Shown: positions 30,239-62,540 of the stretch, piece after piece | Position numbering within the stretch: the first letter of the stretch is position 1 | Layout of the letters: each line of letters opens with the position of its first letter | Assembly (NCBI GenBank): GCA_036971615.1 | Contig: JAYKKR010000003.1 | Span: 248,001-312,000, forward strand | Source of the DNA: Amyloporia xantha | Taxonomy: Eukaryota > Basidiomycota > Agaricomycetes > Polyporales > Adustoporiaceae | DNA: 64,000 nt | Reading direction: 5' to 3' | Notes under the pieces: model-generated | Database searches by the model: none | What the model saw: only the letters and a program-made list of their open reading frames with translations | What the model was told of the DNA's origin: nothing | Translations under genes and position numbers: made by a program

Positions 30239-30344
30239 TACTTTGCTTCCGTGCTCCGACTCCGCTGATGGCTGTCGCTCAACCTGATCGCGCTCGCTGA
30301 AAGCAGAAATCCCGGGGGAATTCGAGCCCATTCAGTCATTATAG

Positions 30345-31550: not shown

Positions 31551-31559
31551 TTTATAGGC

Positions 31560-32580: not shown

Positions 32581-32589
32581 TAGCCTATG

Positions 32590-34895: not shown

Positions 34896-34902
34896 GGAAT
34901 TC

Positions 34903-35165
34903 ACCCGCGGCATGCCTACGGCTTGCTTGGGAAGCACGGTGGCAGCTCAGGCGGCATGATGGCGGCATGCTCGGGGATGGCGGTCCGCAGATCAACAATG
35001 GTAGCCGATCACCAGATCACACAATGCCGATCGGCCGCGCGAGATCCTTCAGGCCCTTGCGATCAAGAAGGGAAGCGATCGACAAACATGCGTGCAGTCA
35101 TAACAGCAGTAGACAATGCTGTTGCAGCATGGTCGACAGGCGTTAGGTCCTGCTAGTAATATACA
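34903..35165. promoter_or_regulatory. divergent promoter region between HMG-box-like and TET/JBP genes of A, split by F
   Basis: With 30,239-30,316 this forms the original intergenic region. The right part holds ATGATGGCGGCATGC-type words and two GATC-rich stretches but no clear core promoter. Foldback F sits exactly between the divergent genes. Confidence 0.4.
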
Positions 35166-36540: not shown

Positions 36541-37867
36541 GCAGCGGCATGATCCGCCATCCCAGTCCAGAGCGCCACCTGACGGTGCGCGTAGCATACA
36601 TGGCCAGGAGGCCCTATCAGACGCGAGCGCCATTTGTCCGCCTTGTGGTGAAAGCTGGCCACTGTCCACTCCATCTCCGCCTGGACCATAACCAAGTCCT
36701 CGGCCCATCTGTCTTTCCGAGATTTGGCGCGTAACCAGTTCACGCGATGTACTTGTCCGTGTAAATCAGGACACCATGCCAATCAGACGTGGACATGTCA
36801 CTCACACTCTGTCAACCAATTCGATTGCGCAGTATCACCTTCAATGTCCACGGTCCATATCCAAGATAGCGTCTCCTGCCGGGACCCACGAATCGAGTTA
36901 TCTAGCATGGCGGTGATGGCTTTGAGATCCACGTGTTGGATGGCTTGGAACCGTGCCCGGATATGGTCATCGGGATTGAGGGCAAGGATGGCGAGCCTGC
37001 TTTGAGTGTATATGCGTACGTTTTCCAACACGGTTCGTTGTGTCGCTATCACTTCATCCCAAGACCTGAGCTTTTGGCGTTGGCTTTTCGCATGGCGCAC
37101 CGCTGTCCGAAACAGCACTGACTTGTAGCCGATGGCGAGGCGAATCTGATGAAGCGCATCGTTGGCTTGACCCACTCGCAAGCTTAGCTCCTCAGCCGCT
37201 ATGTCCTCCAGGTTAGTGGCCAAGATGACGTCATAGCCAAGCTGTGAAGGCAACGATATAATGGCGTTCTCAGGTTGTATTCCTGATTCCACTTCCCCGG
37301 GAAACATTTCCTCCAACGGATTGACGTCTTCTTCCAGCGCATCCCATTCTGCGCCATCGTAAGTGATTCCAGGAGCGTCGCGGTCATCCTCAAAGAGGAC
37401 TGGTAGATAGGATGTAGCTTTCTCTCTTGTGAAGTCGTTGGCGCCGCTCCTCTAGCGTAAGGCGGTCGACCAGCAGCGGATGGCGCCCCATCTTGCGCTT
37501 GAGCTGGCTAATCCCCAATCTGTCAATGTTCTGTGAGATTCAAGTGAGTATAGCACGCCGTGTAGACTTACTGCAGCTCCTGGATCTTCATTCCAGTAGC
37601 GATCCATGCAGCCACCCCCTGATGGCGCCCTTGTGTAGTCTCCTTTTGGGTCAGCTGGAGTTGGATGGCCATTCGGCTAGGCGCTGTTTATATTGAGTAC
37701 TCATCAACGTTGAGCCAAATGTTATTTCTCACCCTTCTTCATTTTGACGTCAAAAATGTCCATGGCGCTGATGGTCTCTGTGCGCATGGCCAGCGCTTCG
37801 GCTTCTGCATCCCGCCACTCTTGCAGCTGCTCTTCTGTGCTGGACCGCTCCATATACTCCAAAACTT
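36516..37867 (-). pseudogene. C-terminal part of element A KDZ transposase, separated by B
   Basis: From the B insertion leftward: QVLEYMERSSTEEQLQEW, LKRKMGRHPLLVDRL, LEEMFPGEVESG, LSLRVGQANDALHQIRLAIG, QRQKLRSWDEVIATQRTV, LDNSIRGSRQETLSWIW, an intron, then VNWLRAKSRKDRWAEDL, ending FAKCEA at 36,516. This is the long helical C-terminal region of the transposase, about 55% identical by eye to 44,230-45,676 of B. The N-terminal part lies at 62,541-64,000 and beyond. Element B entered an exon at codons for ESA/QVL. Confidence 0.85.
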
Positions 37868-37874
37868 GTGCGCT
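37868..37874. other. left target-site duplication of element B (GTGCGCT)
   Basis: GTGCGCT recurs at 62,534-62,540. Removing one copy and B restores a continuous A transposase reading frame across the junction, which fixes both borders. Confidence 0.9.
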
Positions 37875-37959
37875 GAGCCCATTCAGTCACATTCACCTGA
37901 CTCCTAGGATATATATGCCTGACATTGTCCCCTAAGGCATGGGGCGCCGGACATCGGCC

Positions 37960-39470
37960 GACACCGCAGCTATGGCCCTGCAAAGTGGCCCGGCCGGCCC
38001 ACCATGTGATTTTGCAGGCACATAGGCTGGCGCGAGATACCGTCACTCGACCGCGACTATCCCGCTCATACTCCCTGGTTCGGCCGATATGCCTGTGGTC
38101 TCTGTCTACCAGACTCGTGCCACATCCTCGCGTCAGCCGCGACTGACTCCCTGGCTCAGCCGATATACCTGTCTCTGCCTGTTAGGCTCGCGCGGGATCC
38201 CCGCGACGATGATTCCCCTATTCCATGGCTCGGTCGAAGTGCCCATGTACTATACCTGCTAGACTCGCGCAAGATCCTGGCATCAGCCGCGACTGTTTCG
38301 CTCCTACTCCCTGGCTCGGCCGATATATCTCTGGTGTCTGCCTGCTAGGTTTGCTCGGGATTCCCGCGAGCAGTCCTCTCTGACTTCCTGGCTCGGCCAA
38401 TACATCTATGGTCTCTGCCTGCTAGGCTCGCGCGGGATCCCCCCCACCATACTTCTCCTATTCCATGGCTCGGCCGAAGCGCCTGTGTTCCCTACCTGGT
38501 AGACTCGCGCGTCCTTCCCGCAACTATGTGGCTCTTACTCCCTGGCTCGGCCGATTTAGCTCACCACTCTGCTACCAGGCTCGCGCGAGATGCCCGCGAC
38601 TATACTGCTCTTGCTCCCTGGCTCGGCCGATTCAGCTCACCACTCTGCTACCAGGCTCGCGCGAGATGCCCGCGACTATACTGCTCCTACTCCATGGCTC
38701 GGCCGATTCATTTCAGTACTCTGCTACCAGGCTCGCGCGAGATGCCCGCGACTATACTGCTCCTACTCCATGGATCGGCCGATTCATTTCAGTACTCTGC
38801 TACCAGGCTCGCGCGAGATGCCCGCGACTATACTGCTCCTGCTCCCTGGCTCGGCCGATTCATTTCAGTACTCTGCTACCAGGCTCGCGCGAGATGCCCG
38901 CGACTATACTGCTCTTGCTCCCTGGCTCGGCCGATCTAGCTCACCACTCTCCTGCTAGGCTCGCGCGAGATGCCCGCGACTATACTGCTCCTACTCCATG
39001 GATCGGCCGATTCAGCTGAGTATTTTGTCTACCAGGCTCGCGCGAGATGCCCGCGACTATACTGCTCCTACTCCATGGCTCGGCCGATTCATTTCAGTAC
39101 TCTGCTACCAGGCTCGCGCGAGATGCCCGCGACTATACTGCTCCTACTCCATGGCTCGGCCGATTCATTTCAGTACTCTGCTACCAGGCTCGCGCGAGAT
39201 GCCCGCGACTATACTGCTCCTACTCCATGGCTCGGCCGATTCATTTCAGTACTCTGCTACCAGGCTCGCGCAAGATGCCCGCGACTATACTGCTCCTACT
39301 CCATGGATCGGCCGATCTAGCTCACCACTCTCCTGCTAGGCTCGCGCGAAATGCTCGCGACTATACTGCTCCTACTCCCTGGCTCGGCCGATTCAGCTGA
39401 GTATTTTGTCTACCAGGCTCGCGCGACATGTCCGATGCAGCCGCGACCGTTGCCTTCCTCTCGGTATTTG
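37960..39470. repeat. 76-bp tandem array in B's left terminal region
   Basis: At least ten direct units with a 76-bp period between 38,575 and 39,420 contain CTCGCGCGAGATGCCCGCGA, CTATACTGCTCCTACTCCAT and CTCGGCCGATTCATTTCAG. Looser, older-looking relatives lie at 37,960-38,575. Each unit holds one palindromic CTCGCGCGAG and one CCCGCGAC. Because 76 is not a multiple of three and the unit lacks stops, all three + frames stay open for over 100 codons; these are not genes. Confidence 0.9.
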
Positions 39471-39654
39471 TACAGCCAGTGGGCCACTGTGTGTTACATA
39501 TGGTCATGAGGAGGGCGTTGTAGAACTAGCATGCGCCATGAGGAATACATCACTCATTCAATACTCATCAGGACAAATCATGAATCGGGCAACTGTATCG
39601 CGACGTGCGGATTGACAATCGGCATCAAATAGGACAGAACACGACATCTACAAA

Positions 39655-40411
39655 CTACGCGACGAAAGATCGGGTCGCGGTGGTGGTCGCGGCGCCCGGA
39701 TCCTCCTCCTCAATGGCGTAGAGTACCCGCACGACCCCCCGCTGCTCTGCCTCCTTCATCTCCAACATCCTCCTCGCAATCGTCTCAGCGTGCTGTGAGT
39801 GAAGGTCGGCCCTCCTAAGATGATTCGCCTCCATAGGATCTGTCTCGACGGATTGCTACATGTTGGAACATGAGTGACAACAGAATTGATTAAACATCAA
39901 GTTGCAAGGGCTTACCGTCTTTGGCGAATCCCACCAATCAGGATTGTCATCGTCGCGATCGGGCCATTCCCACCACGTTGTGTCGAGATGCGCATCCGAG
40001 TCCAAGATTTCCTCCGAAGGTGCCGCGACTGGACAGGCAATCGGTACGGAAGCCAGCGCGTGAATGTTAAGATCCCATTCAATGCCGAACCTCATGTGCG
40101 CGATCGTGGCCTGGATGATCTGAGGTAAAACCACCGCTTTTCCGCCGCCCGCGAGAACCATCTCTCCGATATTGCCCAATGTGTCCCGCTTTGCACGGAT
40201 GATCAGCATGGTCCACATCAGAATTGATGAGAATAACAAACCAATTCCTTCGTAACCGCGACCTTCCAGCGGTCATATTGAAGGTCTGTCCGGGGAGGTC
40301 CCCAGATTCCATCCGTTCGTTCAGCCTAACGAGGGCTTGCTGTATCCGCCATGCCCGGTAACGGAACATCTGGGTCGCAACTTTTTCAAGATGGCGTGCA
40401 GAAGAGGACAT
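39655..40411 (-). CDS. small protein of element B, copy 2 (unknown function)
   Basis: ATG at 40,411 (MSSSARHLEKVATQMFRYRAW). Exon 1 contains RIQQALVRLNERM; exon 2 (about 40,202-39,920) KAVVLPQIIQATIAHMRFG, DLNIHALASVPI, TTWWEWPDRDDDNPDWWDSP; exon 3 (to 39,655) ETIARRMLEMKEAEQRGVVRV and a short Ala/Thr tail. About 230 residues. It is a diverged duplicate of 41,077-41,854 with the same intron positions. A conserved Trp-rich acidic segment (WWEW-x-DRD) is its hallmark. I recognise no family. Strong conservation of two copies with different third positions suggests both are or were under selection. Confidence 0.65.
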
Positions 40412-41076
40412 TGTACGGTGACAGGAAATACAATGACACTGAAGCCCTTCCCCGGAAAACCTCGTCTAATATTTAGCATGTCTCAACTCTTCGCCTCGTG
40501 GCAAACGTGTTTCCCGCACACGTGTGCGCCTCATGGTCGCGAAGCACTGGCGGGAAGGCGGTGATGCGTATGATAGGAAGCCATTTATCTTGAGAAATTT
40601 GATTGACAGATCGGCTTATAGCCTTCTATCGTGTCTAGTGAATTGTAGCGCAGTTGTCGCGGCTTGGGCCAAGTAGCATTGCTGTTTGACGAGGTCGCGC
40701 AACGGTCGAGACAAGCGCGACACAAGGAGTTGACTACGTATTCAAAACATCATCAACCAGCGCGCATTCTTAGCCGATCACTTCAGAAGCAGCCAAAGAA
40801 TACGTCAATATAGACACGAAGTCACACCTGACCATTATTACGTATCCGCGACAATTCAAAAAATACTCCATGGAATATCTTAGACTTCCGCGACAGTCGC
40901 ATCAGCGCTGAGCGCGGCAGCGGCACCTCTTGATGTCATAATCGGGCATGTGGCATTCAGCAAGAATTGCCCTCCCTGCACGCACGCGGAGTGATGACAG
41001 ACATTATCAGCGTATTATGATTCTCGCGCTCTCAAGAACACATGTATTTCCTATGCAACGTAAGATGTAATAAAAG
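40412..41076. promoter_or_regulatory. spacer with duplicated promoter for the small gene copy 2
   Basis: 40,467-40,550 (GTCTAATATTTAGCAT ... ACACGTGTGCGCCTCATGG, then TCGCGAAGCA) repeats 41,908-41,995 upstream of copy 1 with few changes. A CACGTG E-box-like core and the B word GTCGCG sit in the conserved block. 40,600-41,040 has several CGCGAC words and nothing else. Confidence 0.6.
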
Positions 41077-41854
41077 CTACGAATCGGATGACTGGGCAGC
41101 AGCGGCGGCGGGAGCGGCATCCTTAACGGCGTCGAGGACGCGGAGGATCCCAAGCTTGTCAGCCTGCCTCATCGCGAGCATCCTCCGCGTGATTATCTCC
41201 AAGTCCCTGGAGAGCTCCTCTGCCTTACTGAGGGCATCAACGTCGAATCTGTCCGCCACTGCATACTCCTGTGTCGTAAACTGTAAGCTAACGTTTGGCT
41301 GCATCCAGTCCAATTCAACATACCCCTGTCGGCGACTGCCACCATGCCGGTTTTGAGGGGTCGCGGTCATCCCACTCCCACCACATAGATCCCAGATGGT
41401 CCTCCGTAGACAGGATGTCATTAGGGGGAGGCGGTAAAGGGTGCGTTATTGGAACCGACGCGAGCGCGTGGATGTCCAGATCCCAATCCGCGCCGAATGT
41501 CGTCTGCTCGATCAGCGCCTCAATAATCTGAGGCAATTTGACCGCCTTCCCGCGACGCGCGAGGACGATCTCCCCCAAACATAGTCGCGTTTCGCGCTGC
41601 ATATAGGGTGGTCAGCAGAGTCAGTGTGGAGTCAGAGAGTGATAACGAACGAATTCGTGGGTAAGGGCCACTTTCCAGCGGTCGTATTGTAGTTGATTTC
41701 GCGGCAGATCTCCGACAGTGAGGCGATGGTTCAATCTTATCAGTGCCTGCTGGATGCGCCACGCGCGATAGCGGAACATGCGCGTCGCGGTACTTTCGAG
41801 TTGCTCCGCGGACACCGGGGCGGAAGCTTGAGGCGGCATGGCAGCGGAAGACAT
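41077..41854 (-). CDS. small protein of element B, copy 1 (unknown function)
   Basis: Start at ATG 41,854 (MSSAAMPPQASAPVSAEQ), chosen because copy 2 starts in the same place. Exon 1 carries MFRYRAWRIQQALIRL, exon 2 (about 41,601-41,340) KAVKLPQIIEALIEQTTFG, DLDIHALASVPI, SMWWEWDDRDPSKPAWWQ, and exon 3 ADRFDVDALSKAEELSRDL and an Ala-rich tail with SSDS. Introns begin GTTCGT or GTTTGT, as in copy 2. The gene is divergent from the transposase, 245 bp away. Unknown family. It could be a transposition cofactor, but only the context suggests that. Confidence 0.65.
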
Positions 41855-42098
41855 TGAAAGTCGATGGGAGGCAATCAACTGCGAGCCCAGCCTTTACATG
41901 TCTAGTCTAATATTTACCATATCTCTCCTGCTCACCTCGTGGCAGCGACAGCTGATGTTCGCAAACACGTGTGCACCTCATGGTCGCGAAGCATAGTGCA
42001 TGAGTCATAAGCAGGGCCGCGCAAGAGCCATTCCTTTATCTCCATCAACATAACAATAGGAGCGTTGTTGAGTCATTCCCATTTTATTCCCTGCAGCT
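41855..42098. promoter_or_regulatory. divergent promoter between small gene copy 1 and B transposase
   Basis: Contains the conserved GTCTAATATTTACCAT and ACACGTGTGCACCTCATGG block. Near the transposase start there is a pyrimidine-rich CCCATTTTATTCCCTGCAG directly before the ATG at 42,099. Confidence 0.5.
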
Positions 42099-45000
42099 AT
42101 GGGATCTCGCCCTCGCGGGACTGTCTTCAAGGTGGGACGTGGTGTTCGATTTGGAACCAGAGTCGAGAAGCGCACCACGCGAGGAGTTGAGTACGTCTTC
42201 AAAGACAATCCTCAAGCGTCGCGCTCTCCTAGCCGATCACCCTCAAAATCTCCCAGTAAACCACGTAATGAAGCCGCGAGCGCGACTACGGCACCTGATG
42301 ATCAGTATGATGCTCCGCCTATCGAAATGCCCCAGCTTCGACACAAGGTGCACGGTAACTGAATTACTATCGAGCGGCATTTGCTCATCGCGTCCCGTTT
42401 CACAGGGCCAGAATGACTTTATGCGGGACTGGCTTCCACACCGCGAGGCTTATCTCGCCTGCCTGCTGGAGCGGGAAGCACCGCCACCTGACAGACAATG
42501 CAGCCAATGCCGTTCCGCGGAGGGTGATTGGCGCTGCCTGGAATGCTACGGATGCCCCGTGACATGTCGAGGATGCTTGCAGCGTTCACACATGGTGATG
42601 CCGCTTCACCGTATAGAGAAGTGGACTGGTGAATTCTTTACCCCCGCGTGGCTCAATGACGCAGGCGTGCGTATATGGCTTGGGCATGAGGGCCGACCAT
42701 GTGCCGGAAACGCAGGCCAAGACGCAGGCTACCGCGACTGTTCAGCAATGGAGGGTCGCGATGAAGAAGAAGCCCCTCTCTCGCCGCCGCCTCTATTCGC
42801 CCCCTCCCTTGGACGCGAAACAGACCTCATAGTTGTGGTAGATGTAACCGGCGTGCATGAGATTGGAGTTGGATGGTGCTCATGCCCTAATGGCGACAGC
42901 ATGGATAAACAGCTGCTCGCGATGGGTCTTTATCCCGCGACAACATTACGGCCAAAAACTGCATTCACTTTCCGAGTGCTCGACGACTTTCTCCTTACAA
43001 ATAAGGAATGCAAGACCTCCGCGATGAGCTATTTTAGCAAGCTGACTCGCGTCACCAACAACGCATTTCCGGACAGCGTACCGGTGCGCTCCCCATGGCT
43101 GGGGACAAGCATGGATGCTAATGCACCTGGCTAGGATCGGTACCGTGAGCTTTTGCGTCTGTCGCGACAGTGGCGCAATCTCAAGTATCGAAAGTGGCAC
43201 GGATACGGGCATACAGTAACGGCGCCAATCCCACCAGGGGGATTAGCCATATTCTGTCCAACATGTCCTCAACCACATATTAATATACCGGAGGATTTTC
43301 GCAATGACCCACAACAGTGAGTGCTGCCCATCGCGACCAGCGCTAACCAGCCTTAAACGCGTCGCGACAGGTGGAAGTATATGCGCTCCATTGTGATGGA
43401 TGGGAACTTCAGTGCGGAGCATCTGCGTATGAGAAATCCTACGGACGATGTGGCTTTGAGTGACGGACACGGATTTATGGTCGAGGAAAAGCGATACAAG
43501 GAACATTTAAAAGTGGCCTTGGAGTTCAAAGAGGTCAGTCGTCCATGGAGTCGCGGTCGCGCATACCTGATACACAGCTTTTTGTTTGGAATATAGAAAT
43601 CAGATTGTCATGACCATCGGGCAGTCAGTCAGGCCAATGCCGATCGTCACAACCTAGAGGCCACAGGCATTGGCGCGGCAGCATGTGCCCGTCATGGGTG
43701 TTTTGTCCCTCATGCGGTGGTTGACTTTCAGAAAGGCGAGCGGTTAGTACACTCGCAACAAGGCCGCGACCGCGACTAATTGTATGTCTCATGCAGGCAA
43801 ATGAATATGGACTATTCCCTGAACAGTGTCCTCGCGACGCTGGGCGGAGTGAAAATACTCCTTGTGATGTATGATATTATGTGCCAGTACAGCAAGAGGT
43901 TGCATCTCAGATTTGAGAAGAATCCATACCTTGAAATGCCACGAGGAGTCAAGATACGTAGTGGGATAGGGCTATTCCATGTGCACGGCCATCAAGATAG
44001 CTGTTTTCCTCGTTACTCACCCAATTTCATTGAAGGCGCGGGTCAGATAGATGGCGAGGTAATTGAAACATTATGGGCTCCACTAAATAACATATCAGGA
44101 AGCACGCGCGGGATGTCCACAGCGCATAGAAGGGAGGTAATCGACGACCACATGAATGACTCCAACTGGAAGAAACTAACGGGGATGGGTATGAACGTTG
44201 TCGAGCACCTTGTCGCGGCACTGACATTACGCCCATATATATAGGTGCTTCACTCGTCCGCAAGTGGAAGAAAGCTAAAAATGGACGGCAGGAGAGCTCG
44301 GAAGTGCTCGCACAAATGGAAGCCACCGCGGCGATGAGCAGCTGGAAGCATGGACTGCACAGGAGGCGCGCGCAATGGGAAACCGCGACCGCGATGTGCA
44401 AGAGATGGATGTTTATGATGTCAAGTTGAAAAAGGGTATGTGCACCATCCATGTGGGTGATCTCGCGACTTAATTCCCATCGCACAGCCCCTGGAAAGAT
44501 TGCCATCCAGTTAGCTCTCACTCGCGAGGAGACCGCGGCCGGCCGTCATCAAGGGGTAGCCCAATGGCTTGCCAATGGACTCAGGATACAGGAAACACAG
44601 TATGTTACCTGCTTCAAATGCATGCTGACAATGTACTACCGTGCCTATTCACAGGCTAAATCTAAGGGCCTTGAAAAAGAAGTTGGGCCGTCATCCCCTC
44701 CTCGCGGATCAGCTTCAACTGGAAGAGAAGCGACAGCGGCTGCAAAAACGCATTGACACATTTCAGGGGCTGACTTCAACATTCCTGCCTGGTCTCGATG
44801 AGCTGGATGCGGACTGTCTCCATTTGCCGTACAATGGTGCGGAGTGGCTGGATCTGGAGGAAGAGATTAACCCACTTGAGGAGATGGTCGAGATTGAGAA
44901 CGAGGCGCGGTTTGAACCGGAGGAGGCAACATTGTGGTTACCATCCGAGCTTGGCAATGACGTGATGAAGCGGCGACACCTTGAGGAGGTCGCGGAGGAG

Positions 45001-45676
45001 GAGTTGCGTCTCAGAGAAGGCCAGGCAAACGACGCGCTGCATCTCATTCGACTCGCTATTGGATTCAGGTCTGTGCTATATCGCACCGGAGTGCGCGCCG
45101 CGACAAGCCAGCGTCTGAAGTTACGCTCATGGGATGAGGTCGCGGTGGTGAACAAGACGGTCAATGAAAACGCGCGAGTATACACACAGGCGCGACTCGC
45201 CATGGAGGGTTTGGGTGCAGGCGTCGCGACTTTGGGGAAGTATCAGAAACTTGTGCGCGACAACCTCCGATCCATCACAGCACTTATGGACAACTCAGTG
45301 CGTGGAAGCCGTAATTCTGCGCTTTCTTGGATCTGGACTGTGGACTTGGGCGGAGATGGTGCACAGTCAGACTGGATGGCTGAACGTAAGATTCGGAATA
45401 CATAAGTGATGTCTGAGCTAATATCGTTCCTCAGTGCACCGGGTCAATTGGCTCAGGGCGCGCGCTCGCCGCGACCGATGGAAGGAGGATTACACTATTC
45501 TTATTGCAGAGATGGGCTGGTCGGAAGTCAGCTTCCGCAAACGGAGTTGCGATTGGCTGTCGCGCGGCAATGTTCCATACATTGGGCGCGGCCACAGGTG
45601 TTATGCTCTGCGACAGGCGGCGATGTATACATCCATGGCAGACGCACTGATCGAGCTTTGTGCTCCCTGCAAATGA
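42099..45676 (+). CDS. KDZ-type transposase of element B
   Basis: About ten exons. Exon 1 is basic (MGSRPRGTVFKVGRG). Exon 2 (from 42,407) has the CxC2 cysteine cluster (CSQCRSAEGDWRCLECYGC, CRGC, SHMVMPLHRIEKW, WLGHEGRPC). The catalytic core follows: LIVVVDVTGVHEI (first Asp), LLVMYDIMCQYS (second Asp), GLFHVHGHQDSCFPRYSPNF and AGQIDGEVIETLWAPLN (Glu), then the helical C-terminus and a last exon ending ELCAPCK. This matches the KDZ family of cut-and-paste DDE transposases. Relative to A, one base is missing near 44,333, which shifts the frame before DEQLEAW and truncates the protein about 350 residues early unless the base is a sequencing error. It is convergent with the TET/JBP gene, 73 bp apart. 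Confidence 0.85.
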
Positions 45677-45748
45677 CAGTCTGCTCCATTGTTTCTCTCC
45701 TTCGATCAAGGCATTACATAAGTCTCATTTCCCGGAGATGTGCCTGCT

Positions 45749-47021
45749 TTAGTCATAATATGTAATGTCCATCCAATGTGGTGCAACTACCCCCATCGCA
45801 GCGTGCACGGCATCGCGCATAAAATATGCGTAACAGACTCGATCTCCATCGCATGGTCCAACAGAGTGACGAAGAACCTTGCCACAAAGGGCAACCACAG
45901 ATCCAGGTGGATAATGGACATGGAGACCCACCCCATCCATCTCAAAGACCAGGTCGCGGTACGATCCGATTGTGGCGAGGAGATCATACCACGGCTTTCG
46001 TGAGTTGTTGTCGCGGTGAGGTGGTGTCTCGCGGTTCGATATGATCTGTACGGCGTTGAATGGGGATCCCCACGCCTTCACATCCTCGCAGAGACCAGGG
46101 ACCTTCTCTAGCTTGAGCATGGTGTCGCGACCAGCCTGGTAAAGTGGGGGGTGAACTACTGCCAGAATCGCAGACAGAATGGCTGAGGTTTCAGCGATGG
46201 CAGACATCCATTGCAGTGCGCTTTCCCTATTGGTCCCCTTCAGACTCGCGGAATGCTCGAGGGCATGACTCGGTCCCTGTGCAACATCATTTTCACATGA
46301 GCTGCCGATGGTGAGTGTCACACTTACAACGTGACCTTGCTGGTACCATGCGGGGGATATATTTACAGTGCCTGGTTGAATTCGACACATTTCAGGGTCG
46401 CGGAAGAGGCTCGACAATTGTCGCCAACTGCGCGTCCCTTCCTGTGATCCGCCACGCAGTCGCGGCCCACACTGCTTGAGTTGCTTGGCTAATAGATCTG
46501 TCGCGGCCAGCATTTCGTTCTGGTGTGGATGTGTTAACACACACCATTCAAGTTAGAATGTTACTTCAGGTGCACCTGCCGTTTTTCAGATAGCAGACCT
46601 GGAAGAAGCCAGGCCAGAACCCGCCCGTGCATATCCGTCAGAATGGACGGTTCCCTCAATGACATCACTTTGTCTGGTAGCAGACGCGGCCACTTAGCGC
46701 GCAATGCATCCTCCAACTTGTGGTTCTGACCACTCGCTTGGACGCCTAGTGCATCTGCATACCTGTCTGCATCCCAAGGGACGCTGACTACTTATCGCAT
46801 CAGCACCCCATGGCATTACACGGATGAATTGTTACTGTACCGCGATGGAGAAATGCATGGGCGAGACGGTCTGCAATGACGCTGCATTCACCAACGAGAT
46901 ATGTACTAATATTCAGGGAGGATGGCTGTAGTGGCGCGGGTCCTATATCCTTTCGAAGGATGTGTAATCTTCTACGAAACATGGCTTGCATGTATGCCGC
47001 CACCTCGTCGGTTAAGTCCAT
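45749..47021 (-). CDS. TET/JBP-type 2-oxoglutarate/Fe(II) dioxygenase of element B
   Basis: ATG 47,021 (MDLTDEVAAYMQAMF). Exon 2 is at about 46,776-46,565 (DADRYADALGV, GRVLAWLLPGLL), exon 3 at 46,510-46,335 (LAKQLKQCGPRL, RIQPGTVNISPAWYQQGH), and the last exon is from about 46,277. The catalytic motifs are TPPHRDNNSRKPWYDLL (HxD), DYLVFEMDGVGLHVHY-like strand region, PPGSVVALCGKVLRHSV (distal His) and GDRVCYAYFMRDAVH (Arg). It ends HWMDITYYD. No N-terminal CXXC or chromodomain is visible, so targeting would need a partner. The predicted reaction is oxidation of 5-methylcytosine in DNA. The gene shares its upstream region with the HMG-box-like gene. Confidence 0.8.
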
Positions 47022-47500
47022 CAGCTGTAAGGTTCAGCAACTTGTCGCGATTCAGGCATAATGGTCACATTGTCGAGATAGCAGCTACCCACAATTTGTG
47101 TGAATGCGAGAGCGATGAAATGTTTGTGGAAGTAGCTCAGAGGCCCGTTTACTACCTGAGTGCCATGTAGTACATGTGTTTCCAGCATGTCTACCTACAT
47201 GTATTCACGCGCCCTCTGGAAGAACATTCAGGCACCCGGCGCGCCTCGCCGGGGCTCAGCTATCTGGCTACCAATGAGAGGACAATGATGTCGGCTTTAA
47301 GGCCTAATTGCATTGTCGCGGTGCCGACGCAGGGCGCCACTTGTCGCGTAATGTGAAACGGTCCACATCGGGCCTGGTCGCGGTTGCAGACGCAATGAGC
47401 GCGGGGTTTCACCGATTTGGACTCGCGATGTGTGCCCTGTTGAATTTTCTTATTCGTACAGCCATTACCTCCCACCAAAAAACCATCCAACCTGCAAAAT
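47022..47500. promoter_or_regulatory. divergent region between TET/JBP and HMG-box-like genes of B
   Basis: 480 bp with GTCGCG words near 47,040, 47,315, 47,340 and 47,378. No other gene is seen. A pyrimidine-rich stretch and ACCATCCAACCTGCAAA precede the ATG at 47,501. Confidence 0.45.
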
Positions 47501-53468: not shown

Positions 53469-53740
53469 GGAACGTCTTCAAGTCGTCGCGCCGGAGATAC
53501 ATCAGGAATGCATGATCTACGACGATCCCAGTAATTATACTTTATAAGTCAGATACCTAATACACATGCGCTGTTTACGCGCGCGCGCGACTTTGCCTGC
53601 TAGACAGATTCGAAACTTCATTATACTTTTGGGGGAGTTGGTATGCTCCTCCCCCGCGGTCGCGACGGTAGTTTACATGAGAATTAACAACGCCTTGCTA
53701 AAGTAGACTTCATCCCACCCTGCTCCACACACTTGCCTAT
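53469..53740. other. convergent spacer between HMG-box-like and Zn2Cys6 genes of B
   Basis: Non-coding, with GCGCGCGCGCGACTT near 53,580 and GTCGCGACGG near 53,660. Nothing else is recognised. Confidence 0.5.
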
Positions 53741-56700
53741 CTACTGAGTATCGGGCGTTCGCCCAGTCGTCGAAGTGGACGCCTGGCTGTCACTGTTGGC
53801 CTGCGACCCCGACGTGAGACGAGACTGTGAGGTGCTGAAGCTGCCGAAAAGACGCGGCGGGACAAAGGCTCGCTCCCTGGTCAGAACTTGCAGCTGCTGG
53901 CGCATCCCCTCCATCTGGCCAGCGTACCCATCGATCTGTGCGGAAATGGCGTTGAGTGCAGTCTCCACAGTCGAGTTGTCCAGCCTCTGTTGGATCCTCC
54001 TCGTCTCTTCGCGGATGTCCTTGACCGACTGATGGAGCTCCGCAGGCTCGATCGCGATGATACTCGCGGCGAGCTTCTGGATGCGTTGATCCAGCGACTC
54101 GACGACTTTGCCGACCTCCGCATTGTTTTCGCCCACATTCGTCAGTGTCGCGTCCATTCCGTCTTGACGTTCTTCCACTTGCTTGATCCGCGACTGTAGC
54201 TCACGCCCAGTGAGCTCCACAGCGGACATGCGCTCCGTCACCTTGCACAGCTCCGCGTCCGTCGAAGCCATCACTTCGTGGATGTGCTTATCAAACACGG
54301 TCTGGAGATTCACAGACGCGTCGATCACAGAGCCGCGGAACTCTTCCCTCGAGACCATGTCGATGGCCTGGCGCTCGTTGATATCCTCCAGCACCGCGAC
54401 CTTGCGCTCGAGGGCCTTAACTAGCTCCTGGAGCTTGGTGGCCTCCAGAAGGTCTTGATTCGACGGAGCTCCTTTCTGGCTTTCCTCGGCCTCGCTCGCA
54501 TTCCTGCCGTCATTGGAGTCGTCGATCAGTTGGTCGGCTTCCTGCTCGACCTCTTGCATGTGATCGGGCTCTTCATTCGCGACCTGCGGAACTCGCGACC
54601 CATCTTCCGCCGGGGGTGTGGAGGTTGCGTGTCGAGGCGTCGCGACAGTGAGCGGGGACGACACGTCGCGAGAAGGCTCGCGTCTTGGTTTCGACGCACA
54701 CGCCTCTGGAGCTGACTCGCCCAATTTCTTGGCTTCAGCAATGGCGGCGTTCTTGTATTCCTGCCAAAGCTCCTCTTTGTCGCGAACGAAAACGTAGCGG
54801 GGCGGATGGGCTGCGAGCTGAGCAGCGAGCTCGGCTTGCTGCTGTTCTTCTCGCAGTTTCGCTTGACTGGGCCTCGCGACAGCGATGGGTGCGATTTCCT
54901 CCCCGTTAACATCGACGGGAGGTGACGTGCGCTCCAAGCGCGGATTACGCTTCGCCCTCTTCTTTTTGGGCGGGGCACTCGCCTCTGTTGCGCGACCCGC
55001 TGCCGCTGCCTTGTCATTCTTGTAGTCCTCGAATGATTGGCCTCCAGGGAGGACGAGCGCGCCCTCATCGTTCTGATGCAAGAACCCCAGCTCGCGGACG
55101 AACACGCACTCGGTCGGGGGCGCGACCTTGTTCCTCATGCATTCGTCCACGTAATCGTGGAACTTTGTCGCGGCCTCCGTGACGTACTTGTGTCCGGTTA
55201 TCGTCTTGCCGGCGGGTGTACGAGGCGTCAGCGAGCACTTGAGTTTGAGTCGAGCGCAGCCAGCTGCTTCTGTACGGTTGATGCACCAACTAGCGGATAA
55301 GCCCCCAGACCCGTTATGCACCAGGCAGGCTATCTGCCTGCACCCTGGTGCATCATTTGCAGGGTCTTCGCCGGACCCTCCGGGGCCTCCTAGCCTTCGC
55401 CGTAGGGCCCCCGGCATCGCGGCATCTTGCCTAATGTGGCAGGTATCTGTTCCGTGACTTGGCATTATATAACAGAATGGGTATTTTCGGGCATTTATGC
55501 TCAATTAAAACATCAAATTCCACAAAAATATATAATTTATTCCAGTAGCTACAGGGGTACCCAATCACAGACATCTATATACATATGAAAGGTGTACCAG
55601 GCTCGGGAGGGGCACGTGCGGTCGGGGCGGGGCGGTCGGGTGGCACCGCGCGGGCGGTAGGGTGGGCATGTACGAGCCGCGGAGCAGGACATACGAGCCG
55701 CGGGAGCAGCTGGATATACGAGCGGCAGGGGTAGACGAGCAGTGTGGGTGGGAAATACGAGTGGATGCACGAACGGCGCGGCGGGGGCAGACGAGCGGCG
55801 GCGGTAGGACGTGCGAGCGGCAGGGGTGTGTATGTCTTGCCAGGGACGTGCGAGCGGTGGGGCAGGAAATTCGAGCAGTGGGGACATACGAGCCGCCGGG
55901 ACGTACGAGTGGCAGCGGTGGGTCGTACCAGCGACGTGCGAGTGGCGGGGCAGAAAATGCGAGCGGCGGGGACGTACGAGCGGCAGGCGTGCGAGCGGCA
56001 GGAATGGGACGTACAAGCGGTGGGTCAGACGTACGAGCGACAGGTCGGAATGTACGAGCGGCGGGTCTGAATGTACGAGCGCGTGGCGGGACGTATGAGC
56101 GGCGTGGTGGGGGTAGACGAGCAGGGCGGCAGGAGCAGACCAACAGCGGGGGTGGAACGTAGGAGCTGCGGAGAGGGAGCGTCGATCGTTGAGCCGGGAG
56201 CGTCGAGCGTCGAGCGGGGAGCATTGATCGTCCAGCGTCGAGCGGGGGGCGTCCAGCGTCCAGCGTCGAGTGGGAAACGGCGTCGAGCGGGGAGCAGGGA
56301 GCCGGGAGCGGTGAGCGTCGAGTGGAGAGAGCAGGTAGTGGGGGGACCGGGCGCGAGGAGCTTAGCAGCCTCGACGCGCAGAACTGCGTCGAGGGCGTGG
56401 TGTGGTCGTGTCAGTCGGGTCGCTTATAGCGCCGTCAGGCTGGGTAACAAACAGACGATCAGCGGATGAGAAACATAAAAAAAGAAGAGACTTACTTTAC
56501 GACGCTGCTCGCAGGCAGCAGCGGGACGTCGTCGACGTCGAGGACGACGTCGAGGAGACAACCGCTGACGCGTCGCAGTTGGCGCACAACGCGGAAACTG
56601 CCGAAATGCCCGATTTGGACATGTGGCTGAAGTCGTGCTCGCGCTGCTCAGCAAGTACGACGGTTCTGAGCGGGTATCTTCAGTGTATAACATGTAGAGA

Positions 56701-59700
56701 GTAATGAAAATGTATGTGATAGTATAGAAGTTAGTTATCTAGACAGTCCTCAAATTCCTCAGAGAGATATAAACAAAACACACCTATTTGGGTTCCAGAA
56801 TAGTCGAAATTCAGCATATTCTGGTAATATCAGGAACAATAGTCTATGCAATGGTAGAATAAAGGATACTATGTAAAATAGAGCATATAAGAGCAGAATT
56901 AGTTTAGCTGTGGTGTTGATAGGTGAGTGTTTATGGCCGTGATGTTCGAAACAGCCGTATAGGTAGGCTAGCGAATGTTTCGAGCATCGAGTTGCGCCTG
57001 GCTGAGCGCGCCACCTGATTGGCTGCGCTATGCCTCGGCCGACTCGGGACTCTTCCTCACCTCGCAGATCTCGTCCTGTACCTTTCATTCTTGGTAAGCA
57101 AATCCTAATAGTATTCTACTGTGCTAATGTAAATTATGGCGTGGATTGGGGCACTATTGAGAACACAGTAATGTTCTCAATAGTGCCTCAGACGAATGTA
57201 AGATGCTAAGACGCCTTCCTCTTTGGGTAAGTCCGGCACGTGCCGGACTGCCAAAGGTGCCGCGTCACCTTTGGTAGCTGCTCGACGTCGTCGTCGTCGT
57301 CGATGACGTCCCGCTGCTGCCTGTGAGCAGCGTCATAAAGTAAGTATTTTATTCTTCTCTGTTTTTCTTTCACTGACCAAATGTTTCTTACCCAGGTTAA
57401 TGGCGCCGCTAGAAGCAAACCGGCCGACATCCTCGACGCAGTCGAGGCTGCCCAGTCCCTCGCGCCACTCTCCTCAACGCTCCCCATCCCCCGCTCGACG
57501 CTCCTCCCTCGACGCTCTCCCCTCGACGCTCCCGGTTCAACGCCGCTGCCCACTCGGCACTCTACGCTCCTCACAGGACACTCCCTACTCGACGCTGGAC
57601 GCTCCCGGCTCGACACTCGGCGATCGACAGCTCCCGGCTCGACGCTCCCGGCTGCCCGCTCGACGCTCCCCTCTCGACGCTCGACAGTCCCCGTTGCTCG
57701 ACTCCCCCTGCCCGCCTATCCTCCCTCGCCCTGCCCCAGCGCGCTCGCTCGTCCATCCTCGCCCCGCCCACCTGTTCTCCCTCGCCCTGCGCCCGCGCGC
57801 TCGCTCGTCCATCCTCGCCCCGCCCACCCGTCCTCGTTCGCCGCTCGCCCCGCCCGTGCGCGCTCGTCTCGACGATCGACGCTCCCCATTCGACGATTGC
57901 CGCTCCCCCCTCGACGCTACTCAAAGCTCCAGCTTGAGGCCGCTCCCCACTCCCCGCTCAACGCTCCCTGCTCCCCGTTCCTCGACGCTCGACGCTCCCG
58001 CTCAACTCCCCTCTCTACTCGACGCTCCCCCCTGTCCCCACCCCACCGCTTGTTCGACCCCATCCCGCCGCTCGTATGTTCGACCCGCCGCTCGTACGAC
58101 CCAGCCCTGCCGCTCGTATGACCCAGCCCCGCCGCTCGTACGACCCAGCCCCGTCGCTCGTACGTCCGACCCGCCACTCGTACGACCCCACCCCGCCACT
58201 CGTCTGTCTCCGCCCCGCCACTCGTCTGTCTCCGCCCCGCCGCTTGTACGACCCCGCCCCGCCGATCGCCGTAATTTCGCCCTGCCTCAGTTCGGTCCTC
58301 ACCGTACTCACATATGCTCTGCCTGCCGAACATTTGCTTGGCCCCGCCGTACGTACGCACACGCCGCCCTGCTGTATTATTTGCTTTAGCTAGTGAAATA
58401 AATATACATTTCATGAATGTTTATGAATTTCTGTGAATTTATTGATACCAAAATGATCATATATACTCAAAAAATACATTTTGCCATGCAATAAATAACA
58501 CAGGACCCTCGGAATACATGCTTACCAAATGTAGTAACTAGCCGTGGTGCCGAGGGGGCCCTACGGCGAAGGCTAGGAGGCCCCGGAGGGTCCGGCGAAG
58601 CCCCTGGAAATGATGCACCAGAGTGCAGGCAGATAGCCTGCCTGGTGCATAACGGGTCTGGGGGCTTATCCGCTGTTTGGTGCACCAGGTATACATAAGT
58701 TGGTGGCGCAGCGCATGCACCGCCCGAAGTACGCAGGCGAGACTTCGCATATCGTCTTGTTAGCGATACACTGACCGCAGGGCACCACCTGTGGAATACA
58801 AATGTGAGTGTAGAACTGATCCAAGGAGGCTCGCACTTACTGAGGCTTTGGCGCACGCGGTCGCGGCTGCGATTTTCGCGGCTTCGAGTTCCGCCTTTGT
58901 GCTGACCTCCTTCTCTTTCTCCTTGTCGGCTCCCGCTTTCGCTCGTGTCGTCCTGCGCGTGCTAGTCTTGCCTGGGGCCTTCTTCTCACCCCGTCGCGAC
59001 TGGGCTCCCTCATCCTCGTTCTCACCATCTTCACCCTCGTCGTCCTCATCCTCGTCGTCCTCATCCTCGTTTTCGTCATCCACACCCTCCTCATTGTTCG
59101 CTTCCGGCTCCTCCATGTCATCTCGCATCCGCTTCTTCCCTCCCGTGGCTGCCTTTGTCCCTCCCGATGCCCCCGTCCTGCTTGGTGCCATGACGTAGAC
59201 CTTGCGCGTTGGGGCCTTAACTCTCCATTCGTCGCCTGAGTTGTTCACCGCCTTCGCTGTCGAGGATGGCTTCGCTGGGGGCTGCACTTTGGAGCGCAAA
59301 GCGCGCTTTGGCGGACCTATACGCAGCGGCGTCAATGGGCTTGCCGCGGAGGGTGGCGCTGCGACAGTGGGTTGACGCAAACGGGATTGGCTGGAGGCGT
59401 CGGCTTGACGAGAGGGCTTGACGGATTTGGCGGGAGCGGCTTCCCTGTCGCGCTCCACAGACGACTTGCGCTTCGTCCCTGCGCGTTTGGATGTAGACGG
59501 TTCAGGCGTCGGGACCCGTCGCGTCGTTTTACCTGCAGCGGCAGCAGGAGCCACTTGTGCTGGAAATACAAAGGTCAGTCAGTGTGCTCGACAAGTCGGA
59601 ACGCAGTACTCACCTGTCGCGGCCCACCACTGCTCCTCACCCAGTCCAACCTGTGCAGGTGGTGCGGGCACCACATGGACCTTGCGTCTGTACGCGTCGA

Positions 59701-60035
59701 TTTGAGGATCGTCCGCCCTGATGCGGCGCAGATCGGGGTGGTTCGGCGACTCTGCGTACTCCCGCGCGGCGCTGAACAGCAAGGCGGGTACGCAAAGTGA
59801 TGCCCGCACCATCTGGGGCGCGTCGCGAAATACATGCCAGCCCTTTTTCTAGTAACAGAGAATGGGTCAACCATTAAGCAAGGAGATACACAGGCTCACT
59901 CACAAACTCTGCATAGAACGCCTTCTCAAACACGACATACCCCTCTGTGCCAGGGGACGGCGCGCAAGAAAGCGCGGCGGCCATGCGCGCGGTCGCGATG
60001 TAGATTTGGTTCTGGGTGGAGGCGGCGTCAGACAT
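53741..60035 (-). CDS. Zn2Cys6-type cluster and coiled-coil protein of element B, split by C2
   Basis: ATG 60,035 (MSDAASTQNQIYIATARM). Exon 2 gives GWHVFRDAPQMVRASL...EEQWWA, exon 3 a Lys/Arg/Ser linker and acidic EDEDDEDEDDEGED. The next exon holds the cluster C-x2-C-x6-C-x9-C-x2-C-x6-C (PCGQC, TIC, GRCMRC, KLKCS), a Zn2Cys6-type pattern. Transposon C2 (55,261-58,705) cuts between CMRC and ARLKLKC, inside the zinc cluster. Downstream follow a basic nuclear-localisation-like KKKRAKRNPR and a 200-residue coiled coil (KALERKVAVLEDI, SLDQRIQKLAASI), ending GRTPDTQ. Same architecture as 23,510-26,367. The C2 insertion almost certainly abolishes DNA binding of this copy. Confidence 0.75.
55261..58705. 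mobile_element. non-autonomous transposon C2
   Basis: Left end CAGCTGCTTCTGTA, right end complement CACCAACTTATGTATACC, 7-bp duplication GCGCAGC (55,254-55,260 and 58,706-58,712). Subterminal inverted repeats of about 200 bp match C1. Left interior: GTACGAGCGGC words; right interior: CTCGACGCTCCC and CCGCTCGTACG words, inverted. A short frame (DVVDVEDDVEETTADASQLAH...MPDLDMWL) near 56,470-56,700 recurs inverted and decayed at 57,206-57,360. No transposase is recognised. Confidence 0.85.
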
Positions 60036-60288
60036 GATCTGTGGAAGGAGCAAGTTTGTACTAAGAGCAAGAGGAAAGAAAGGGTGGTGGAGGAGGAGGA
60101 AGAAAGGACTTGGATGCGCGCGACCTTCAAGTGCTGGACGGGTTGCTAGTTATGTCAGCAACGGGTCATCTTCTTGTCACGTGCACGTGGTGAAGTCGAA
60201 TCGAGCGCGACCTCCTTGACGTACCTGCGTTGTTGTGAACATTCTCGAGTACACATCCCTCCGTCCACGAACATCAATAGCGCGAGCC
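60036..60288. promoter_or_regulatory. divergent promoter between Zn2Cys6 and terminal genes of B
   Basis: 253 bp. CATCTTCTTGTCACGTGCACGTGGTG (E-box-like CACGTG twice) lies near 60,165-60,190. The same region in B-prime is the landing site of transposon T. Confidence 0.55.
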
Positions 60289-61523
60289 ATGGATTCAGAC
60301 GCGGAAAATTGTAAGTCGTCCATTCAGCGCCGATAACATCACTACTAACCTACCACACCAAGTTCAAGTTGATCGCGAGCGGTCGCCGGTCCTCCTCGAT
60401 GCGCTGATGTCGGAACCCGATGACTTCGAACATCACGACGGTGAGTGCAGTGATCACGAAGTTTCATCTATGAAGCTCATGAAGTCGCGAACAAATTGAC
60501 TTGCCGCTCGAAGGCCACGACGTGGAGCGGGCGCGGACTCCAGTTGACCTCGATTTATTTGAGTTGGAAACAGGTATGTTCCTATCTTCTTGAAACACTT
60601 CCACATCAGCAATATATTAAAATCTGCATTAAGAGCCTCTCCTCGAAGGCCACGAATTGGAGCGGGCGCGGACTCCAATTGACCTCGATTTATTTGAGTT
60701 GGAAACTGGTATGTTCCCATCTTCTTGTAACACTTCAACATCAGCAAGATTTGAAAATCTGCATTAAGAGTCTCGCCGTGGACGGAGCCCAATAGATCTC
60801 GGCCTCATCAACTCAGACGAAGACATCACCGTGTCTCGCGACCGATCTCCAATTGACCTCACAGCATTGGGAGAGGACAGCGACAATGACCACGGTCAAG
60901 GTGAGTGTACTCCAATCAACGTGATCTGTGGCGGACTAATCATGCGAAACATAACCGCGTGTTTCTATCGACATCAAATTTCTGATCCGGGTCGAGCCAG
61001 GAGATCAAATTCAGTTCTCCACTAGCAGCAAGGATAAAGGCAGGGACAGGGGAAATGACAATAACTCTAGCGAACGCAGCATTATTGACATCTCCTCTGA
61101 GGATGACTTCCCAATAGACCCCGCGATCAAGTACATGGCTGCAGGGCCTGCGCGCAACTTAGACGCGGTCGCGACTGCAGGTGTGATGGCGCCTCTTCCG
61201 CCTCCTTCTCATCATTCCCGACTTGCCTACATTAAGGAAAAAGTTACCCTTGGTACGTAAGAATCATCATATTCTGGACTGGTTCTGATTCCTTCATAGG
61301 GTTTCCTTCTGTGAGGGAGGCCACATTTCTCCGCGACGAGCGCCGCCACGCGCGCGAGCAGCTTATCGCGGTGAACCGCGACATCGAAGCGCTGACCGAT
61401 ATGCTTGTCTTGCAGCAGGCAATCCAGGGGGAAGTTCGCAAGAGAACCATAGGAGGGAGGATGAGAGAGATGGAGCGAATGTTGTGGGAGAAGGAGATTG
61501 GCTCTGGCGATGAAGACAAGTAG
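60289..61523 (+). CDS. terminal accessory protein of element B (tandem duplicated LDL exons)
   Basis: ATG 60,289 (MDSDAEN), an intron, then VDRERSPVLLDALMSEPDD. Two nearly identical exon-intron units follow (exons at about 60,514-60,574 and 60,650-60,709), each encoding GHxxERARTPxDLDLFELE. The next exon repeats the theme (SRDRSPIDLTALGEDS), and another has RSIIDISSEDDFPID. The last exon (from 61,304) is a helix (LRDERRHAREQLIAVNRDI) ending GSGDEDK. The acidic-hydrophobic motif after R-S/T-P occurs at least five times. It is positionally equivalent to 22,119-23,279 of A and to the gene at the left window edge. No known domain. The repeats look like docking or SUMO-interaction-like motifs, but that is a guess. 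Confidence 0.7.
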
Positions 61524-61679
61524 CACGGCCCTTCACAGTAGCGTAACGACATGCATCGTTAAAAGTCATTAGTTCTCGCTGGTAATGCGAATACAATTTT
61601 AAAATTGGCACGGGCCTAGATCAGAGTAAATGACCATGAACACCACTGGCAGCGGGCATACCATAAACCGCAAGTTTAG
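61524..61679. other. 3' spacer after B's terminal gene
   Basis: AT-richer stretch, likely the 3' end of the terminal-gene transcript. No further features seen. Confidence 0.35.
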
Positions 61680-62533
61680 TGTGTGTCGCGTCCGCGACAA
61701 AGTGGAGAGAATTCGCTGAAAGTGATACCTGCTAGAGGTGAGTTGTACAAGTACACGCCCGGAGAGAGTAGAGAGCTTCATAATTATTTGTCACTACAGA
61801 GACCCCTTAATCAGTTAGGGAATGCGAACGTACATATCAACGGAGCCTACTGCAAAAAGGTTGCAGCGCCCGAGCCTTGAGTAGGAACCGCGACGCGAGA
61901 TCGTCCCTCTGAGGTAGTCGCGGCCGGTCCTACATGTCAGGACAAAAGCTTGGGAGCGGTTGCGGCTACAGAAAAGAAAACTCAGAAGAATAATCTCGAC
62001 CGAGCCTACTGCCAGAATGTCGAATAGGGCATCGGCCGAGCCTTGACTGGAAACCGCGACGCGAGATCGTCCCTCTGAGGTACTCGCGGCCGGTCCTAAA
62101 TGTCAGGACACAGGCTTGGGAGCGGTCGCGGCTACGGAGGAGGAAACTCAGAGGAACAATACCGACCGAGCCTACTGCCAGAATGTCAAATAGGGCATCG
62201 GCCGAGCCTTGAGTAGGAATCGCGACGCGAGATCGTCCCATTGAGTTCCTCGCGGCCGGTCCTGCACGCGAAGGAATCAGTTTAGGAGCGGCCGCGCCTA
62301 CACTATATACACTATAAAGACGGACATGGTCGCGATGTCGGCCGGGGCTAGATCCAGGTGATGGAATGACGCATCGGCCGGGCCATACTTCAGGTGATCA
62401 CAACACACGGCGGCCGGGCCAGTCTCATAGGCCACTGCTAGGGCGTCGGGCGACGTCCGGCGCCCCATGCCTTAGGGGACAATGTCAGGCATATATATCC
62501 TAGGAGTCAGGGGTACAGTGACTGAAAGGTGTG
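61680..62533. repeat. right terminal region of element B with about 155-bp tandem units
   Basis: Three units between about 61,850 and 62,290 share GAGCCTACTGC, CGCGACGCGAGATCGTCCC, CGCGGCCGGTCCTA and GGGCATCGGCCGAGCC. They are followed by the terminal stretch GGCGCCCCATGCCTTAGGGG that pairs with the left end at about 37,920-37,955. The array differs completely from the left array, so only the outermost part is a true inverted repeat. Confidence 0.8.
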
Positions 62534-62540
62534 GTGCGCT
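62534..62540. other. right target-site duplication of element B (GTGCGCT)
   Basis: Pairs with 37,868-37,874 and lies within the codons of A's transposase. Confidence 0.9.

Follow-up and report, generated by a model that had tools for sequence, protein, structure and literature searches.

Two short CpG-containing words in TET-bearing KDZ transposons of Amyloporia xantha: candidate recognition sites of an element-encoded zinc-cluster protein

Element B is a transposon of the basidiomycete Amyloporia xantha that encodes a KDZ transposase and a TET/JBP dioxygenase. It occupies positions 37875-62533 of a 64-kb stretch of DNA, here called the window (C23:248001-312000; all coordinates are those of the window unless a contig is named), in a genome of 46.8 Mb. 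The six-base word CGCGAC/GTCGCG recurs throughout its sequence, and the question raised by this locus is why a transposon should carry one short word along its whole length, coding sequence included. The answer that is somewhat favoured by the evidence below is that such words are selected recognition sites spread across TET-bearing KDZ elements, and that ORF3, a Zn2Cys6 protein of these elements, is their likely reader and would bring the TET/JBP enzyme along, in a form of self-addressed anti-silencing. B is nested in a second TET-bearing KDZ element, denoted F-type, and is itself interrupted by two inserts, D and C2. Its parts are the following (open frames are taken as exons throughout).

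37868-37874, no strand: left target-site duplication (TSD) of B, GTGCGCT
37875-62533, plus strand: element B, a KDZ transposon with a TET gene and the CGCGAC word, split by the inserts D and C2 (termini, 7-bp TSD, shared left end, word count)
37875-39450, no strand: left terminal array of ~76-bp units, mostly with one CCGCGAC and one palindromic TCGGCCGA each (17 CGCGAC, 33 GGCCGA)
42004-43134, plus strand: transposase frame with CxC2 cysteine cluster (PF18803, E 4.5e-26; 5 CGCGAC)
43780-44244, plus strand: KDZ transposase domain (PF18758, E 3.3e-32, 112.4 bits against a cut-off of 26.6)
44629-45405, plus strand: C-terminal transposase frame without Pfam match, assigned via its F counterpart (55% identity to F frame 36798-37451)
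45749-46552, minus strand: TET/JBP dioxygenase (PF12851, E 1.7e-21; 7 CGCGAC)
47570-51170, plus strand: ORF2, three open frames with no assigned function (19 CGCGAC in the three frames; two frames 33-46% identical to F frames)
51177-53412, no strand: insert D, a foldback element that belongs to a different group (I2/I3 inverted repeats; 87-88% to loci L075/L077; 0 CGCGAC in 2,236 bp)
53741-55260, minus strand: ORF3, a Zn2Cys6 protein whose cluster exon is disrupted by C2 (ORF3 search; complete cluster from B copy L083)
55261-58705, no strand: insert C2, of another group, four of its open frames without Pfam match (B copy L082/L083 uninterrupted at the site; 0 CGCGAC in 3,445 bp)
61863-62360, no strand: right terminal array of 166-bp units, again with CCGCGAC and TCGGCCGA
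62534-62540, no strand: right TSD of B, GTGCGCT

Counted on exact borders, B's own sequence holds 136 copies of CGCGAC/GTCGCG in 18,978 bp, distributed over the segments 37875-51176 (94; 7.1/kb), 53413-55260 (18; 9.7/kb), and 58706-62533 (24; 6.3/kb). The left flank (27875-37874, 10 kb) holds 5 and the right flank (1,467 bp) holds 2. A preliminary description of this DNA had reported the word as dense throughout B, which these counts bear out, and its estimate of about 12 copies in 53,741-55,260 becomes 13 on recounting. It had further described D and C2 as free of the word, with the density ending at their borders. Both inserts indeed hold none; the border of C2 had to be redrawn. A B copy (L082/L083) runs through the site, its aligned pieces overlapping by 7 bp, so that C2 is confined to 55261-58705 and B resumes at 58706; the region formerly assigned to C2 therefore contained B sequence. 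C2 splits the ORF3 gene within its zinc-cluster exon (55258-55261), which is intact in another B copy.

Within B, the word is found in coding and noncoding sequence alike. The open frames contain 53 copies in 8,148 bp (6.5/kb) and the remainder 49 in 6,468 bp (7.6/kb), a density that omits 58706-60810, then assigned to C2, with its 11 copies in 2,105 bp. The two strands are used evenly (35 vs 42 in 39451-51170), and words in coding frames occupy all six combinations of frame and orientation. A pyrimidine usually precedes the word, 81 of 102 copies having C or T immediately 5' of CGCGAC. CCGCGAC occurs 48 times against 3.9 expected, a twelvefold excess, and the form with T at the first base is in sixfold excess. 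Variants of CCGCGAC changed at one of the six core positions are seen 0-11 times against 1.0-4.5 expected, which is at most about threefold.

The sequence around B carries another word, ATGGCG, in the elements listed here.

23955-25718, plus strand: F-type ORF3, Zn2Cys6 protein (8 ATGGCG)
24576-24665, plus strand: F-type Zn2Cys6 cluster CGTCIQFDARCVIVPSTGRCTTCQNRKKRC
26558-28444, minus strand: F-type ORF2 frame (17 ATGGCG)
30324-34895, no strand: element X, with B-like termini and TSD GGAATTC (72 ATGGCG, of which 70 ATGGCGC, in arrays)
34895-37874, plus strand: F-type element of the ATGGCG class, TET-containing part, with B inserted at its right end (98% to L068; 18 ATGGCG, 3 CGCGAC)
35947-36540, plus strand: F-type TET/JBP domain (PF12851, E 3.1e-16)
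62541-64000, minus strand: F-type element continued, KDZ end (KDZ match C23:310666-311067; 14 ATGGCG in 62534-64000)

The gene order of the F-type element, taken from frames in the window, is that of B: KDZ transposase (with the CxC2 cluster in B), TET/JBP, ORF2, and ORF3, the TET/JBP and ORF3 genes of B lying on the opposite strand. That the neighbouring elements carry ATGGCG instead of CGCGAC agrees with the earlier account, as does its figure of about 17 copies in 26,558-28,363, which a recount gives as exactly 17. GATGGCG is in about tenfold excess in this class (55 vs 5.7 expected), its core variants in at most about threefold. The preliminary description had assigned one word to each family; the families fall instead into two word classes, in which B and the related B2 share CGCGAC, and F-type, L016-type, and X share ATGGCG. 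The change of word is visible between homologous genes. Between the transposase DNA of B and that of L016 (64% identical) the words are swapped (CGCGAC 13 vs 0; ATGGCG 2 vs 13), and the same is seen between B and F in the TET frames (CGCGAC 7 vs 2; ATGGCG 0 vs 5) and the C-terminal transposase frames (CGCGAC 7 vs 1; ATGGCG 1 vs 6). The F-type host of B is a mosaic: 34895-37874 is 98% identical to L068 and ~71% to L016, and 62537-63984 is 90% identical to L016. Families of the ATGGCG class may exchange halves.

Codon choice was examined by permuting codons within each frame, which retains protein and codon usage, in 400 synonymous shuffles of eight B frames and eight F-type frames. The B frames contain 53 CGCGAC against a shuffle mean of 12.2 (standard deviation 3.1, maximum 20), and none of the 400 shuffles reaches the observed number; ATGGCG stands at 11 vs 7.7. 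The F-type frames, two pairs of which overlap slightly, contain 47 ATGGCG against a mean of 12.2 (standard deviation 2.9, maximum 22; again 0 of 400), with CGCGAC at 7 vs 6.7. Codon choice is accordingly bent to accommodate the word, as had been proposed. In the body of B, with most of the terminal arrays set aside, 113 CGCGAC are present where a second-order Markov background predicts 24.6, and composition or codon bias as the source of the words is rejected by the shuffles and the Markov controls together.

An alignment of 3,064 bases between B and B2 (L070) shows 71.6% identity. CGCGAC is kept from B to B2 in 13 of 19 cases (13 of 17 in reverse), compared with 34 of 108 for hexamers of the same composition (Fisher p 0.003) and 15.6% for all hexamers. 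Where the amino acid is conserved, degenerate codons are identical in 23 of 26 cases within words and in 200 of 419 outside (p 3e-5); codon-matched expectation for the 26 in-word codons is 12.0. In the ATGGCG class, words are likewise kept above controls (8/18 vs 41/224 and 9/15 vs 40/201). Selection on the word of B is well supported.

To see how far the words extend beyond the window, KDZ and TET_JBP profiles were matched to the genome, giving 174 KDZ and 114 TET_JBP matches, 79 of the latter over the cut-off. The sample consisted of the 30 loci with the best TET scores, the 30 with the best KDZ scores, and 12 further TET loci. All 30 best-scoring TET loci belong to one class or the other: 20 carry CGCGAC at 2.5/kb or more with little ATGGCG, 10 show the reverse, and none carries both or neither. 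Among the best-scoring KDZ loci, 13 are rich in ATGGCG, one (L033, a B copy beside an ATGGCG element) carries both words, and 16 carry neither. These 16 are the TET-less loci, and either word was found in 0 of the 16 fetched. Their nearest TET match lies 11 kb away for L015, with an ORF3 match 7.4 kb away as well, 17 kb away for L022, and at least 36 kb away or on another contig for the others. Two of the further TET loci join the classes, L070 that of CGCGAC and L073 that of ATGGCG. The expectation that other KDZ elements of this genome would show such words thus holds for TET-bearing loci and fails for the TET-less ones; in the loci sampled, the words accompany KDZ-borne TETs.

Pairs of words within 30 bp can be followed genome-wide. 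Paired CCGCGAC occurs 332 times vs 65 for the reversed pattern, and paired GATGGCG 492 times vs 7. Among the first 100 places listed for each, 67 CCGCGAC pairs lie within 20 kb of a B or B2 ORF3, a zone covering 2.9% of the genome (33 do not), and 85 GATGGCG pairs lie near an F-type ORF3 or TET (6.1% of the genome; 15 do not). In Markov simulations (60 each), all eight TET-bearing representatives exceed every simulation, L073 narrowly (5.5 vs 5.4). The same holds for one of 12 TET-less KDZ representatives (L015, CGGCAG), these being 12 of the 16 such loci, and for one of six loci picked for a chance CGCGAC pair (L005, CTCCTC; L006 and L008 omitted). It also holds for two of 10 divergent-TET loci outside the KDZ families, L072 (AATAAG, 17 vs 3.3) and L074 (ACAAAC, 16 vs 2.6). 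These AT-rich words are perhaps further codes or subterminal repeats; of the 16 ACAAAC copies in L074, 10 are confined to the initial 1,045 bases, so that they may form a terminal array.

The likeliest reader of the words would be the element's own Zn2Cys6 protein, ORF3, which both classes encode. The B query located relatives of it at 45 places, and the F query added 65 more (grouped by hand from 112 and 106 listed matches), and an ORF3 lies within 25 kb of 75 of the 79 TETs over the cut-off. The zinc-cluster pattern sought, CX2CX6CX(5-12)CX2CX6C, is present as CX2CX6CX(8-9)CX2CX6C in all six ORF3 stretches read, which comprise one each from B, F, and the L016 type and three from the two paralogues of B2, one of these having been read in two elements. 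Together with the profile matches for transposase and oxidase, this confirms the gene content that had been ascribed to the elements. The second half of the cluster differs between the classes (CAR.K.KC with CGCGAC, C..RK..C with ATGGCG). Zinc-cluster domains are 54% identical between B and B2 and 27-33% between classes; the KDZ domains of B and F share 75% and their TETs 53% (174 residues). A blastp comparison of B frames with F frames gave no hit for B ORF3, nor for two other B frames (one with its counterpart outside the window). Such a divergent cluster might be expected of a reader whose specificity changes. A search of a large protein database for ORF3 homologues scored 7,996 candidates and found none at E 0.001. 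B2 elements appear to hold two ORF3 genes that have diverged from each other, each with a zinc cluster of its own (L084, C22:169300-169850, and L085, C22:184900-185500).

In the mechanism proposed, ORF3 would bind YCGCGAC in B and B2 and (G)ATGGCG in the other class, coating the element and also apparently gene-less relatives such as X; such members without genes of their own would be served in trans. ORF3 would then bring the TET/JBP oxidase that the element encodes, possibly along with the transposase, to the element rather than to the host, and the oxidase there would lead to the undoing of CpG methylation along the full length. The binding of the word by ORF3, the recruitment of TET by ORF3, and anti-silencing as the outcome are all inferred. 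A more specific version is offered tentatively, as possible but not quite probable: that the words form a swappable, transposon-wide address code, with synonymous codons held in place so that the zinc-cluster protein can lay the element's own TET along its whole length.

Several observations weigh against the proposal that the words are sites through which ORF3 directs TET. The central 1.1 kb of X lacks the word, and 10 divergent TET loci, all below the cut-off, carry neither word class (0-0.7/kb). The sampled loci are not independent, since by sequence the 30 TET loci form four clusters and the 16 TET-less KDZ loci twelve; the TET link may therefore reflect ancestry, the TET-less elements being maybe another lineage. 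On the side of selection, the codon comparison of F with L061 is not significant (15/23 vs 171/372, p 0.057; 13.2 expected when codon-matched), and two B copies that are 97% identical (B of the window and L069) show no excess retention of words (58/68 vs 317/361 for controls). For the reader, Pfam Zn_clus does not rise above its cut-off of 21 (three of five sequences match partially at 11.3-14.6 bits, two of five not at all), and the fold model of the zinc cluster is poor (predicted local distance difference test score, pLDDT, 50.7). Finally, the available text of a 2025 survey of fungal TET-bearing transposons, in which VANDAL elements are mentioned as background, regards the function of transposon-borne fungal TET/JBP as unproven and speculates that those of the Agaricomycete (AG) type oxidize without target specificity (PMC12730594).

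An alternative regarded as improbable is that the words are sites of the transposase, bound by its CxC2 cluster and spread past the ends so as to hold the element in a transposition complex, TET being unrelated to them. B does have a CxC2 domain, and word and palindrome stand together in the arrays, CCGCGAC with TCGGCCGA in those of B and ATGGCGC with TCGGCCGA in those of X; TCGGCCGA is found in the terminal arrays of both classes beside the private word (37875-39450, 30324-30941, 34279-34895). X is built of such arrays, has no ATGGCG in its central part (31519-32656), and contains a single open frame of at least 150 aa (33679-34365), which has no Pfam match. B and X nevertheless share termini and TCGGCCGA despite their different words, so that recognition of the ends seems separate from the word; TCGGCCGA would then be a separate site, suited to the transposase. 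A transposase site is also made less likely by the presence of words all along the coding frames of an element of 18 kb and by their absence from the sampled TET-less KDZ loci.

Zn2Cys6 proteins are mostly transcription factors, and ORF3 co-occurs with the words. It could accordingly be an ordinary activator with very many sites that drives the genes of the element and does not steer TET, which is judged to be about as doubtful as the transposase explanation. Control of promoters does not call for a density in coding frames close to that elsewhere, and every one of the 30 best-scoring TET loci carries one of the words.

Still less probable is that the CpG itself is what counts, the word being the sequence on which the element's TET, or a methyltransferase of the host, acts by preference, so that no further protein would be needed to read it. 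Both words contain CpG (CGCGAC two of them), and the sampled word-bearing families have a TET. Yet ATGGCG fixes six bases around one CpG, core variants that keep the CpG show only the modest excesses given above, and the TETs of B and F are 53% identical although their words are unrelated. CpG depletion was considered as a marker of TET effect and is uninformative: values are 0.83-1.06 at seven TET-bearing loci and 0.89-1.15 at 10 of 12 TET-less KDZ loci, the other two standing at 0.51 (L014) and 0.17 (L023).

That the words are a by-product of base composition, codon bias, or the spread of tandem arrays is very improbable, for although the terminal arrays and X consist of tandem units and the words of C1 and C2 lie largely in arrays, this reading is contradicted for B by the shuffles and Markov controls, the sharpness against core variants, the occurrence of words in all frames and outside arrays, and the conservation of in-word codons in B2.

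The remaining features of B and its surroundings concern its identity as a transposon and its neighbours. B starts with GAGCCC and ends with GGTGTG. Its left end (601 bases) is present in full length at eight genomic places, itself included, with 99-100% identity, and in inverted orientation its positions 5-122 match, at 85-87%, the right end of B as well as places ~18-24 kb away from left ends elsewhere. The TET of B aligns with the solved CcTET (PDB 8jkk/7vpn), HRD...H residues included. A large protein database yielded 142 homologues of the TET, of which nearly all among the 120 listed are unnamed or 'hypothetical', one carrying the name Sparassis crispa; a scan of viral contigs for the TET found no relative. 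Common ends of the form CAGCTGCTT(A/C)TGTAC..TGATGCACCA are shared by C1 (6781-9774), D (51177-53412), C2 (55261-58705), and the divergent-TET locus L075, and D is strongly depleted in CpG (0.26). CGAGCG-type words had been reported for C1 and C2, but masking attributes them mostly to tandem arrays: in the C1 region none of them then ranks in the top six, whether 6-mers or 7-mers are counted, and in the C2 region CGTCGAG drops from 24 to 9. The region first described as C1 also includes B fragments (97-98%) at 2390-2958 and 6113-6565. Direct repeats at 9774-10874 and 17532-18777 (7.76-7.9 kb apart, 89-96% identity), near an aspartyl protease frame (18504-19349), probably mark a retrotransposon.

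Comparable arrangements are known from other systems. The TnpA protein of the maize transposon Spm/En is element-encoded, binds a repeated short subterminal motif, and is linked to loss of methylation; it resembles the present case in joining an element protein to a repeated short motif and differs in that the motif is subterminal only and no TET is involved. The DNA uptake sequences of Neisseria and Haemophilus are short words that saturate DNA, coding parts included, as a self label read by a protein, but they mark whole bacterial genomes for DNA uptake and not a transposon. A close parallel is that of the Arabidopsis VANDAL elements. Their VANC proteins are described, in the available parts of the reports, as binding short motifs that lie in noncoding tandem repeats and as evolving together with these motifs, with much weaker binding to probes from coding regions (PMC5735166, PMC10398659). 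There as here, related transposons carry different short private motifs, anti-silencing is the proposed use, and an element-encoded protein binds the motif, which is shown for VANC and only suggested for ORF3. Unlike the noncoding VANC motifs, the word of B is held at nearly equal density in open frames, with codons bent to it; the host is a fungus, the transposase is of KDZ rather than MuDR type, and the element includes a TET/JBP oxidase.

Among fungal elements, B resembles the TET-bearing KDZ elements of Agaricomycetes (Kyakuja) in its KDZ transposase, its CcTET-related TET/JBP, and its 7-bp TSD, as far as these are described in the available sections of the survey (PMC12730594). The Kyakuja termini given there (5'-CA..TG-3', without terminal inverted repeats, in two L. 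bicolor families) are not those of B, which has inverted GAGCCC...GGTGTG ends. The same sections describe neither a dispersed word nor a Zn2Cys6 gene, and the available text of a study of oxidized methylcytosine in Laccaria and Coprinopsis does not mention KDZ, sequence-specific, or zinc (PMC8889193). Among the literature matches listed, as far as their text was available, there was no description of such words in KDZ elements.

If the proposed reading is true, a private, selected word would give transposon-borne TETs a target, and sequence-specific anti-silencing would extend from plants to fungi and reach into coding sequence. Pairs of reader and word occurring in nature would become available for steering TET enzymes, and the private word opens TET targeting to direct tests, through DNA-binding assays and maps of methylation. 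The TET-bearing KDZ transposons of A. xantha would then represent self-addressed DNA demethylation with a swappable code, two classes of which lie adjacent and nested within one fungal genome.

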